Virus record (IMG/VR): IMGVR_UViG_3300004460_000261
Coordinates: 1 to 31,813 of that record
DNA from: a virus
Direction: 5' to 3' (one strand)
Length of the DNA stretch: 31,813 bases
Shown here: positions 8,240 to 11,321 of the stretch, piece after piece
Layout of the letters: the number at the start of each line of letters is the position of its first letter
Numbering within the stretch: the first letter of the stretch is position 1
Position numbers and translations under genes: made by a program
The notes under the pieces: generated by a model
The model's database searches: none
What the model saw: only the letters and a program-made list of their open reading frames with translations
Told to the model about the DNA's origin: nothing

Positions 8240-8629
8240 ATGAGAACGCAAGAAATTAAAGGATTAATTAAGAGCCATCATAATATAATTTATAGGCTTG
8301 AAAAGATGCTAAAAGAACAACCTAAACAAATAAACGAAGAAAGATTCCCATCTGAAATGATTGTTCAAGAAGTTAACAATAAGTTTATGGTTGATATTAC
8401 AAAAATTACCAGAAAGAAAAAGGTAATGTATGCCAGACACGCTGCAGTATATCTTCTAAAAACACATACTAACTTAATATGGCAGGATATAGCGGTAAGT
8501 GTTGGTAATACTCACCATACATCTGTTATTCATTCATTTAAGGCTGCAAAGGATATTATGGAAACGGATGATGATTACTTACAAACAATAAATGAAATAA
8601 AAGAAAGGTTAGTATTTCTTAAAAATTAG
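8240..8629 (+). CDS. stand-alone DnaA domain IV-like DNA-binding protein
   Basis: A 129-residue protein. Residues about 45-125 match the C-terminal DNA-binding domain (domain IV) of the bacterial initiator DnaA: RKKKVMYARHAAVYLLKTHT (about 58-77), WQDIAVSVGN, then the DnaA signature THHTSVIHSFKAAKDI (about 91-106). The AAA+ ATPase domain is absent. The N-terminal 40 residues form a charged helix. It may bind DnaA-box-like sites in the phage origin or compete with host DnaA. It directly precedes the promoter/leader of the initiator gene at 8733, which supports an origin-related role. Confidence 0.75.
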   Translation: MRTQEIKGLIKSHHNIIYRLEKMLKEQPKQINEERFPSEMIVQEVNNKFMVDITKITRKKKVMYARHAAVYLLKTHTNLIWQDIAVSVGNTHHTSVIHSFKAAKDIMETDDDYLQTINEIKERLVFLKN

Positions 8630-8637
8630 TATCTTTG
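8630..8637 (+). promoter_or_regulatory. candidate promoter, -7 box TATCTTTG
   Basis: TATCTTTG matches the Bacteroidota -7 consensus TAnnTTTG exactly. It overlaps the end of the DnaA-like gene, about 95 bases before the initiator start. No clear TTTG stands at the expected -33 distance; GTTAG near 8609-8613 is the nearest candidate. Transcription would begin near 8643, just before the structured RNA described next. Confidence 0.55.
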
Positions 8638-8648
8638 TAGAAATGAAG

Positions 8649-8729
8649 GAGTCAGACTTCATATTTAAAATTCTTGTTAATCCTAATGGGGTGCGATGCT
8701 GACTCATCAATCCCTGTTAGGATTTTTAT
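8649..8729 (+). ncRNA. structured leader or small RNA with terminator-like hairpin and pseudoknot
   Basis: A 13-bp stem (two G-U pairs) forms between 8679-8691 (AATCCTAATGGGG) and 8712-8724 (CCCTGTTAGGATT) around a 20-base loop, followed by a T-rich tail. GAGTCAG at 8649-8655 is the exact complement of CTGACTC at 8699-8705 inside that loop, so a pseudoknot could form. A TATCTTTG promoter box lies just upstream. It is either an attenuator leader of the initiator gene (ATG 8733, no Shine-Dalgarno) or a free RNA of about 85 nt. Confidence 0.5.
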
Positions 8730-8732
8730 ATT

Positions 8733-9482
8733 ATGAATACAGGACAGATAATAAAATCAAGAACAACTGAAAGGTTTACTACACTTCCCAATGATGTAAT
8801 TAAATCAAAAGAATTAACATTATCTGAAAAGGGTTTATTAAGTTATCTTTTAAGCCTTCCTGCTGATTGGGTTATATATAAACAAAATTTATATAACTCA
8901 CTCCCAGATAAAGAAGGAACGATAGATAAAACATTTAAGGCACTTCAAACAAAAGGATATATTATATCTGTTAGAGTTCACGATAAAAATACAGGTAAGT
9001 TTATGGGATGGAATCACATTGTATATGATATCCCTGCCGAATCTGAAAAACACCGAGATGGGCAAACACCGACTTCGGAATTTACCGATATCGGTGAAAG
9101 TAGTCCTATACTAAAGACTAATGTATTACAAAAGACTAATATTATACAAAAGACTAATAGAATACAAAGTAAACCCACGCAACAGGAAGTAATTGATTTT
9201 TTTATTAGTAAAGAAAGTACAGAAGAAAAAGCAAAACAAGCATACGAATACTACGAAGTTGCTGATTGGTATGATGCTAAAGGCAACAGGGTAAAAAATT
9301 GGAAACAAAAAATGTTATCAGTTTGGATAAATAACAATAACTTTACAAAAACAACAACTAAACAAAATGGAAAATCAACTTCAGATTATTACAAAGAACA
9401 CTACGACAGAAATCTCAAATGGGCAACCGAATGGGATGCAGCAGAAGGAAAACAACCTTTTTTTACAGGCGAAGAAAACTGA
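8733..9482 (+). CDS. replication initiator with winged-helix N-terminus (lambda O / DnaD-like)
   Basis: A 249-residue protein. Residues about 15-100 form a helix-turn-helix domain of the replication-initiator type (FTTLPNDVIKSKELTLSEKG, LSYLLSLPADWVIYKQNL, TFKALQTKGYI). The linker at about 100-150 is Ser/Thr-rich and includes a repeated six-residue unit ending LQKTN/IQKTN. The C-terminal part (YYEVADWYDAKGNRVKNWKQ near 173-192) resembles the DnaD-like tail that contacts helicase or loader. The linker DNA carries 18-bp direct repeats and a palindrome, just as the lambda origin lies inside gene O. The 3' end overlaps the next gene by 116 nt, an unusually long overlap. The gene lies behind a structured leader, which may limit its expression. 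Confidence 0.7.
   Translation: MNTGQIIKSRTTERFTTLPNDVIKSKELTLSEKGLLSYLLSLPADWVIYKQNLYNSLPDKEGTIDKTFKALQTKGYIISVRVHDKNTGKFMGWNHIVYDIPAESEKHRDGQTPTSEFTDIGESSPILKTNVLQKTNIIQKTNRIQSKPTQQEVIDFFISKESTEEKAKQAYEYYEVADWYDAKGNRVKNWKQKMLSVWINNNNFTKTTTKQNGKSTSDYYKEHYDRNLKWATEWDAAEGKQPFFTGEEN
9049..9098 (+). repeat. CACCGA repeats and ACCGATATCGGT palindrome in the initiator gene
   Basis: AACACCGA begins at 9049 and again at 9065 (16-base period). A related TTACCGA begins at 9082 and leads into the perfect 12-bp palindrome ACCGATATCGGT (9084-9095), whose right half is an inverted copy of the motif. They lie directly upstream of the 18-bp repeats and may be further initiator-binding sites. Confidence 0.45.
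9111..9174 (+). repeat. iteron-like 18-bp direct repeats, candidate replication origin
   Basis: Three tandem 18-bp units start at 9111, 9129 and 9147, sharing the core AAAGACTAAT. A degenerate fourth start follows at 9165 (CAAAGTAAAC). The units are in frame inside the initiator gene and encode its repetitive linker. Direct repeats in the linker-coding part of an initiator gene are the arrangement of lambda ori in gene O, so this is the best origin candidate in the window. Confidence 0.55.
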
Positions 9483-10116
9483 AAAATTAAAAGCAGTTAA
9501 TATTCCTGTCATCCTGCAAGTAATTGAAAAGGGATTGATGCTATTGGGAATTAAAGGAGAGAAGCATCCAGATGAAATGTCAATGAAATTAATTGTTGCT
9601 GAACTTCGCAGCCATTATATAAACTTAACTATTGGAGAATTAGACCTTGCTTTTACTTTAGCATCCAGAGGTCAGTTAGATTACGATAATGAAACATATC
9701 AATCATTTTCTGTTCTATACCTAAACAGAATGTTATCTGCATACGCAAGATGGGCATCACATAAGCATTTTATAGAAGAAGTAAAAGAGCCTGTACAATT
9801 AAAACCTTCACTTCCTGAAGATGATATTATAGAAATGGCATTTGATAGTTATAAGAAGTTTAAACAATGGTGGTCAATATTTTACTGCTTAAAAACCTTT
9901 AATATCCTGCATAGTAGGGGAGAAGTAGGTAATGATGTGGACTATATTGTAAGTAAAACTGAAGAGGCAATGCAAAGAAGAATAGATAGGGCAGACCACG
10001 AAGATAAAAAGGATTTAATTGCTGAATTTAAAGATGATGACCAAATGGAATTAAATTGTCGCAGAATGGCAGTAGCTTTGTACTTTAATAAGAAAATTAA
10101 TGAACTTACTACTTGA
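9367..10116 (+). CDS. putative helicase loader / replication protein
   Basis: A 249-residue, mainly helical protein that starts 116 nt inside the initiator gene. ATG 9367 follows an A-rich stretch; a later ATG at 9436 would still overlap. No Walker A motif is visible, so it is not a DnaC-type ATPase. The core (VIEKGLMLLGIKGEKHPDEM, then FSVLYLNRMLSAYARW) and the acidic, helical C-terminus resemble proteins that follow initiators in Bacteroidota phages, where a helicase loader or primosome adaptor is expected. The assignment is from position and shape only. Confidence 0.5.
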   Translation: MENQLQIITKNTTTEISNGQPNGMQQKENNLFLQAKKTEKLKAVNIPVILQVIEKGLMLLGIKGEKHPDEMSMKLIVAELRSHYINLTIGELDLAFTLASRGQLDYDNETYQSFSVLYLNRMLSAYARWASHKHFIEEVKEPVQLKPSLPEDDIIEMAFDSYKKFKQWWSIFYCLKTFNILHSRGEVGNDVDYIVSKTEEAMQRRIDRADHEDKKDLIAEFKDDDQMELNCRRMAVALYFNKKINELTT

Positions 10117-10799: not shown

Positions 10800-11007
10800 G
10801 AAAGATAAAATACTTGAATCATTAATTCAGAAATACAAAGAAAGGGCAGAGAAAGGTCATTTGAAATATGGAACTACTCTGGACAGAAACGACCTTGAAT
10901 TATTAGAATGGGTAAACCACGCACAAGAGGAAGCAATGGATTACTGCTTATATTTAGAAAAGATAAAACAAATGTTATCTAATTCAAAAGGAATAAATAT
11001 TTATTAA
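10798..11007 (+). CDS. small MazG-like / phage-conserved helical protein
   Basis: A 69-residue helical protein. The pattern KYKERAEKGHLKYGTTLDRN followed by EWVNHAQEEAMDYCLYLEK is widespread in phages. The E-x-x-x-H-x-x-E-E-x-x-D arrangement (about 37-48) resembles the metal-binding helices of all-alpha NTP pyrophosphohydrolases (MazG-like), but the protein is short and may be only a relative. If active it would clean nucleotide pools. Its stop shares one base with the next start (TAATG). Confidence 0.55.
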   Translation: MKDKILESLIQKYKERAEKGHLKYGTTLDRNDLELLEWVNHAQEEAMDYCLYLEKIKQMLSNSKGINIY

Positions 11008-11321
11008 TGGATATATTAGCAAATGAGTTAACCAAATGGGCAAAGGATTACTCTAAAAAACAAAATTGGAGAGTAACACGAATGAACAACACACCTATTC
11101 ATAGAAGGAAGGGAACTATTGAAAAGGGATGGTGCGATTTAATTGGTTACACAGATACAGGAATATTTGTAGGTATTGAAGTAAAAAAGATAGGAGATAG
11201 ATTAAGTCCTGAACAACAGGACAGAATTAAAGATATTATTACTTGTGGCGGAAAGGCTTACCTTTGTACTGAAGAAAATGGTAAACCGATTTTAATACAA
11301 TGGGAAGGAACGAAATTTTAA
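11007..11321 (+). CDS. VRR-NUC domain nuclease
   Basis: A 104-residue protein that is essentially one VRR-NUC domain, a PD-(D/E)XK-type nuclease fold common in phages and believed to cut branched or structured DNA. Catalytic residues are visible: D44 in GWCDLIG, E58 and K60 in GIEVKK, and the following QQ (70-71) of the Q motif. N-terminal basic residues (HRRKG) probably contact DNA. Its end overlaps the next gene by 22 nt. It probably acts in recombination or in resolving replication intermediates. Confidence 0.85.
   Translation: MDILANELTKWAKDYSKKQNWRVTRMNNTPIHRRKGTIEKGWCDLIGYTDTGIFVGIEVKKIGDRLSPEQQDRIKDIITCGGKAYLCTEENGKPILIQWEGTKF

Follow-up and report, generated by a model that had tools for sequence, protein, structure and literature searches.

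In the Lactococcus phage TP901-1, the repeats of the replication origin presumably lie within the rep gene, and comparable arrangements have been described in lambda and in plasmids. The excerpt of the lambda literature cited here puts the iterons and AT-rich tract of ori-lambda midway along the initiator gene O (PMC7466680). For plasmids, the cited portion of one study describes origin sites of pSK41 (RepA_N) in the linker that joins an N-terminal winged helix to the C-terminal domain, and a pPR9 Rep whose pfam13730 (HTH_36) N-terminal domain and origin region were swapped in jointly (PMC5703833). Bacillus DnaD at oriC reads the unwinding element as single-stranded DNA after DnaA has melted the origin, according to the cited section of a further study (PMC10201434).

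The locus described here is probably a further, well-supported member of this known kind of origin. It lies in a viral sequence of 31,813 nt, referred to as the window, in which the initiator gene occupies positions 8733-9482 of the + strand and encodes 249 amino acids. Its sequence features make it probable that a phage infecting Bacteroidetes-type bacteria here has, inside the linker of a winged-helix, DnaD-like initiator, a lambda-like intragenic origin of the TP901-1/pPR9 type, with iterons, AT-rich repeats and DNA-binding domain forming a single cassette. An earlier sequence-only reading had proposed a lambda-like origin in this linker, with 18-bp tandem repeats as the iterons. Comparison supports that layout well; as for the two repeat types, their roles are probably reversed relative to that reading.

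The gene matches the PHROG 'DnaD-like helicase loader' (7.9e-15) as well as further replication-initiation PHROGs. An AlphaFold2 model (mean pLDDT 68) predicts an N-terminal winged helix (amino acids ~1-103), a disordered linker (amino acids 106-144, pLDDT <50) and a helical C-terminal domain (amino acids ~150-237); from its secondary structure, the recognition helix is assigned to amino acids 61-73, encoded at 8913-8951 (+ strand). Initiator or primosome proteins give the best structural matches to the N-terminal domain, with moderate Z scores (6.6-9.0): DnaB of Geobacillus (Z 9.0; rmsd 3.6 over 96 aligned positions), RctB domain 1 (Z 8.1; rmsd 3.3 over 101), DnaD (Z 7.2), and the initiator/Rep-DNA entries 4pt7 (Z 7.2) and 5kbj (Z 6.6). 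Foldseek returned zero matches at E≤0.001, and phmmer against PDB sequences gave no relevant match. The next ORF (9367-10116; 249 amino acids; PHROG 26016, function unknown) shares 116 bp with the initiator gene and, judged by its position, could encode a helicase loader; some named phages have a helicase loader annotated after the initiator. Further downstream, at 11007-11321, lies a gene for a VRR-NUC domain nuclease (Pfam 3.9e-8) that most close relatives keep.

The N-terminal domain is related to that of TP901-1 Rep (tblastn 4e-11), a protein labelled experimental in its record. The TP901-1 rep linker contains CCAGATGTGG sites at 15-bp spacing and then ACTAAATACTAAT, by eye the same layout as in the window; Sak-like and ssb genes upstream are a further point of resemblance. 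The two differ in half-site, spacing and host phylum; of the protein, the N-terminal domain and linker were compared. The window shares with the HTH_36/DnaD-like TP901-1 type a related winged-helix N-terminal domain (its match to Pfam HTH_36 itself is weak and below the cut-off) and palindromic candidate iterons at 15-16 bp in the linker, followed by an AT-rich element. Among 12 named phages hand-picked from 206 records, those of Pectobacterium, Helicobacter and Arthrobacter and the Flavobacterium phage morran9-1 had no clear array. Our literature search found no paper on the origin of this initiator family; the paper on the TP901-1 origin was likewise absent from its results.

Like RepA_N and pPR9 plasmids, as far as the excerpt cited above portrays them, the window has its proposed origin sites in a linker, but it is a phage with other sites, and the RepA_N domain (PF06970) found no match in the initiator at E≤1, which places it outside RepA_N. 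As in the lambda O arrangement outlined in the cited excerpt, the sites fall between DNA-binding and C-terminal domains and are flanked by an AT-rich tract, but the candidate iterons are 10-bp palindromes at 16-bp spacing. No match to a lambda O family appeared in Pfam or PHROG scans at E≤1; the window origin would work like ori-lambda, but it is no member of the lambda O family. DnaD, in the section cited, shares the winged-helix fold and the position of the initiator side adjoining the unwinding element, but recognizes single-stranded DNA, in contrast to the double-stranded iterons proposed here.

The candidate iterons are copies of a 10-bp palindrome, CCGANNTCGG, exact at 9069 and 9085 and with one mismatch at 9053, spaced by exactly 16 bp. 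The three copies (CCGAGATGGG, one mismatch, 9053-9062; CCGACTTCGG, 9069-9078; CCGATATCGG, 9085-9094) form a block with a GC content of 0.52, and are the only occurrences of CCGANNTCGG with at most one mismatch in the whole 31.8-kb window. Inspection of the sequence suggests that a degenerate copy, CCGAATCTGA at 9037-9046, 16 bp upstream of the next one, may be a fourth iteron; the relative L015 carries CCGATATCGA in its place. Because 16 bp does not make a whole number of codons, each copy falls in a different one of the three reading frames, and thus a repeat in the protein cannot explain them. Two exact CCGANNTCGG sites arose in 0 of 20,000 synonymous codon shuffles of the gene that kept the protein unchanged. 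The sequence-only reading had noted CACCGA repeats ahead of the 18-bp array, which are present at 9051 and 9067, and a 12-bp palindrome at 9084-9095 (ACCGATATCGGT), which is perfect; it overlooked that these are parts of one pattern of 10-bp sites spaced by 16 bp. The palindromes are likely the initiator-binding iterons, and better candidates for that role than the 18-bp repeats.

The AT-rich 18-bp tandem repeats (CTAAAGACTAAT...) occupy 9105-9168 on the + strand. The three units previously placed at 9111, 9129 and 9147 are present by direct check of the sequence and lie in a period-18 array detected by TRF at 9108-9168 (score 87, 3.4 copies). This 61-bp stretch has a GC content of 0.20, is the least stable in the gene (tied with neighbouring stretches), and falls within the lowest 0.94% in stability of all 61-bp stretches in the record. 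Although the 18-bp unit encodes an in-frame repeat of six amino acids, the array exceeds what that repeat would lead one to expect: the observed lag-18 identity of 36/43 was reached by 29 of 20,000 protein-preserving synonymous codon shuffles. The repeats fade in divergent relatives that keep the protein (e.g., L024 and L038). Since they fade in this way, are AT-rich and unstable, and are placed like the AT-rich tract of lambda, they are probably not iterons; from their composition and position, they are probably a DNA unwinding element. A DnaA-trio-like CTACTA in the AT-rich element was considered and rejected as a general feature (2/75 CCGA and 11/74 CCGT linkers, versus shuffle means of 1.4 and 1.1).

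A protein search of viral contigs yielded 80 loci, from each of which the ORF with the best BLASTP match was taken. At least two exact CCGANNTCGG sites were present in 29 of 37 distinct relatives with the same N-terminal domain, compared to 0 of 29 that share only the C-terminal domain (L037, which is cut at a contig end, was left out of this comparison). Outside the gene, exact CCGANNTCGG occurred twice in 299 kb from the first group and not at all in 223 kb from the second. In close relatives, the sites occupy the same offsets (320, 336 and 352) in frames 2, 0 and 1. Judged by the refuting condition set in the sequence-only reading, loss of the repeats from relatives with a conserved protein, the palindromes hold up, whereas the 18-bp repeats as iterons fail in part, fading in relatives such as L024 and L038. 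Across 15 relatives hand-picked from the L001-L081 set, identical amino acids were encoded by the same codon at a fraction of 0.88 over the palindromes (amino acids 107-122) and 0.89 over the AT-rich repeats (amino acids 123-145), versus 0.51 for amino acids 1-100 and 0.63 for the C-terminal domain. This high synonymous codon identity indicates that both elements are constrained as DNA. We also searched 77 protein-selected domain-linker pairs de novo, assuming only that a palindrome with 4-bp arms would occur in two exact copies: 57 were of CCGA type, 2 of CCGT type and 18 had none. By eye, most of these 18 genes contain degenerate arrays; in L050, L164 and L165, no palindromes were seen by eye.

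The domain and its sites are exchanged together. The window and its close relative L021, a phage contig, are 93.5% identical up to 8735, at the start codon; blastn similarity resumes at 9138 and, by eye, near-identity resumes from ~9159, the end of the AT-rich repeats. Between 8736 and the resumed similarity, L021 carries an unrelated DNA-binding domain and linker with its own 21-22-bp repeats. The exchangeable specificity cassette, comprising DNA-binding domain, iterons and AT-rich repeats, can thus be delimited to 8736-9158 (+ strand), replaced in L021 as one piece of ~0.42 kb, a natural experiment that shows the unit of exchange. Conversely, L017 has the same domain and linker joined to a different C-terminal domain. 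Other N-terminal domains on the same C-terminal domain carry linker repeats of their own, including CATATG units (L053-L056, L058, L059, L061 and L062); over the linkers of L053-L062, L021, L048 and L074, the repeats comprise CATATG units, CCTCCCATT[AG]A every 21-22 bp, ATATACCTATATCGG and GGGACTACCACT, and are perhaps further origin types.

We also scanned viral contigs blindly, using no protein information, for pairs of identical palindromes at a spacing of 14-16 bp, or of 15-16 bp in the case of CCGA. Among the matches listed, 63 of 120 CCGA stretches, 84 of 120 CCGT stretches and 59 of 120 CCAC stretches lay inside ORFs with this N-terminal domain, as did 24 of 54 CCTA stretches; the control palindrome GCCA..TGGC gave 0 of 56. 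The 57 of 120 CCGA matches listed that fell outside such genes came mostly from GC-rich contigs. In contigs below 50% GC, the proportions inside N-domain ORFs were 59/68 (CCGA), 44/50 (CCGT) and 55/87 (CCAC) among the matches listed, 24/45 for CCTA and 0/14 for the control. The median distance from the end of the domain to the first palindrome was 25-39 nt, again among the matches listed.

Site type is associated with the recognition helix. In 196 distinct domains from the blind scans (among the matches listed), column 61, at the start of the recognition helix, was the most informative of all columns, both on site type and on base 3 of the half-site (mutual information with base 3, 0.663 bits; second-ranked column, 0.559). 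Among these same matches, G3 sites went with K or R at 61 in 118 of 132 domains, A3 sites (n=48) with an acidic residue in 22 and an aliphatic one in 15, and T3 sites with an aliphatic residue in 11 of 16. An acidic residue 62 accompanies CCGT (68/76, versus 12/76 for CCGA). Of the 14 closest disjoint pairs listed that differ at base 3, 12 have G in one member only; in 11 of the 12 the class of residue 61 shifts as expected and in one it is unchanged, with tree paths that may share branches. A tree-aware test of the code yielded 5 supported contrasts, too few for significance (median p 0.25), and the window protein breaks the trend, with E61 next to K at 60. On balance, we consider it an even call that a linker cassette serves as the origin in winged-helix phage initiators from several bacterial phyla, with residue 61 reading base 3 (K/R for G, acidic or aliphatic for A, aliphatic for T) and specificity changed by swapping a 0.4-kb cassette. 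Most uncultivated phages have no known replication origin. If a recognition-helix residue does read base 3, origin position and site type would be predictable from sequence for very many of these phages, and if the pairing of site and domain holds, the origin could be read from the initiator gene. The pairing also offers a test of how phages switch replication specificity while keeping the helicase-recruiting half.

We infer that, in vivo, the segment serves as an origin in the following way. The N-terminal winged helix would bind three, perhaps four, CCGANNTCGG palindromes spaced by 16 bp, probably with one initiator dimer per palindrome; binding would load the AT-rich 18-bp repeats just downstream, which would melt, and the C-terminal domain would then recruit the replicative helicase or primase of host or phage. 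Along the gene, the candidate iterons at 9053-9094 are followed by a short spacer and the putative unwinding element at 9105-9168, an arrangement like that of ori-lambda (PMC7466680) and of pSK41 and pPR9 (PMC5703833).

The same palindromes could instead be operators through which the protein controls transcription of its own or downstream genes (e.g., as a roadblock), with no origin present. A winged helix with palindromic sites is a repressor layout too, and the candidate operators fall within the first half of a gene that is early. However, they are 320 bp inside that gene, distant from the promoter-like box at 8630, and are followed by a conserved unstable AT tract; the protein groups with replication initiators, and TP901-1 rep has the same layout, all of which disfavours operators and leaves them an unlikely explanation. 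Less probable again is that the initiator binds the 18-bp tandem repeats as iterons, despite their plausible iteron length and their constraint as DNA: they are AT-rich, non-palindromic and in frame, and they become indistinct in relatives with a conserved protein, whereas the palindromes persist and match the recognition helix in type.

It is scarcely credible that palindromes and AT-rich repeats merely encode a low-complexity linker and have no role as DNA. The linker is indeed predicted to be disordered and the 18-bp unit corresponds to an in-frame six-residue repeat, but the strong synonymous-site conservation contradicts a purely coding explanation, the palindromes recur in three frames, and codon shuffles fail to reproduce either palindromes or array. 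An origin with palindromic iterons and an AT-rich unwinding element remains our preferred reading.

DnaA-related features do not accompany this proposed origin. A DnaA-domain-IV protein encoded upstream at 8240-8629 (Bac_DnaA_C, Pfam 2.3e-12) had been suggested as a second origin binder. L021, in which other repeats stand in this position, has it at 96% identity, and L048, L049 and L053-L061 keep it too, all of them with other initiator N-terminal domains. By contrast, the available DNA around the gene in L017-L020 and L022-L047 yielded no homologue; several of these loci keep the palindromes, and some include little upstream sequence. The protein therefore does not track the repeats, and on synteny we rejected it as a second binder. 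The DnaA box TTATNCACA has no exact copy in the window, and boxes with one mismatch are below chance (42 versus 61); by these sequence counts, the locus would not belong to the DnaA-dependent origins. Cumulative GC skew, suggested earlier as a check, rises steadily and monotonically through the region, with no turn, and so carries no information on an origin here.

The region between the DnaA-domain-IV gene and the initiator (8630-8735) contains a promoter-like TATCTTTG and two hairpins, P1 (8643-8662) and the terminator-like P2 (8679-8724), with a T-run directly before the ATG. These hairpins would form a 5' leader RNA of the initiator gene (8643-8724, + strand) that is not part of the origin: the leader stays when the cassette is exchanged in L021 and so belongs to the backbone. 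The P1 and P2 loops can pair with each other (8649-8655 with 8699-8705, GAGTCAG/CTGACTC), and even without this kissing pair the fold has a z of -3.5. The architecture precedes 55 of 65 distinct protein-selected initiator genes and 15 of 99 pattern-selected genes, versus 73 of 1,500 other ATGs and 28 of 492 shuffles; kissing matches were chosen for complementarity, a selection that only the controls correct. The 55 matching leaders contain 31 distinct kissing pairs (6-9 nt), which covary widely, and 43 have a TANNTTTG box, which we take to be the Bacteroidetes -7 element, within 40 nt upstream (30/1,100 random stretches). Rfam gave no match in the window, leader included. Our guess from these patterns is that the leader attenuates initiator synthesis, perhaps with incompatibility-like specificity, and it is possibly an undescribed kissing-loop attenuator. 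A similar kissing-loop leader occurs in L016 at ~4538, ~0.46 kb upstream of the initiator start and before a different ATG, and genes other than the initiator may therefore have the element as well. Both sides of the kissing pair differ in the near-identical phage L001, with GTTCAG/CTGAAC in place of GAGTCAG/CTGACTC, which suggests fast compensatory change.
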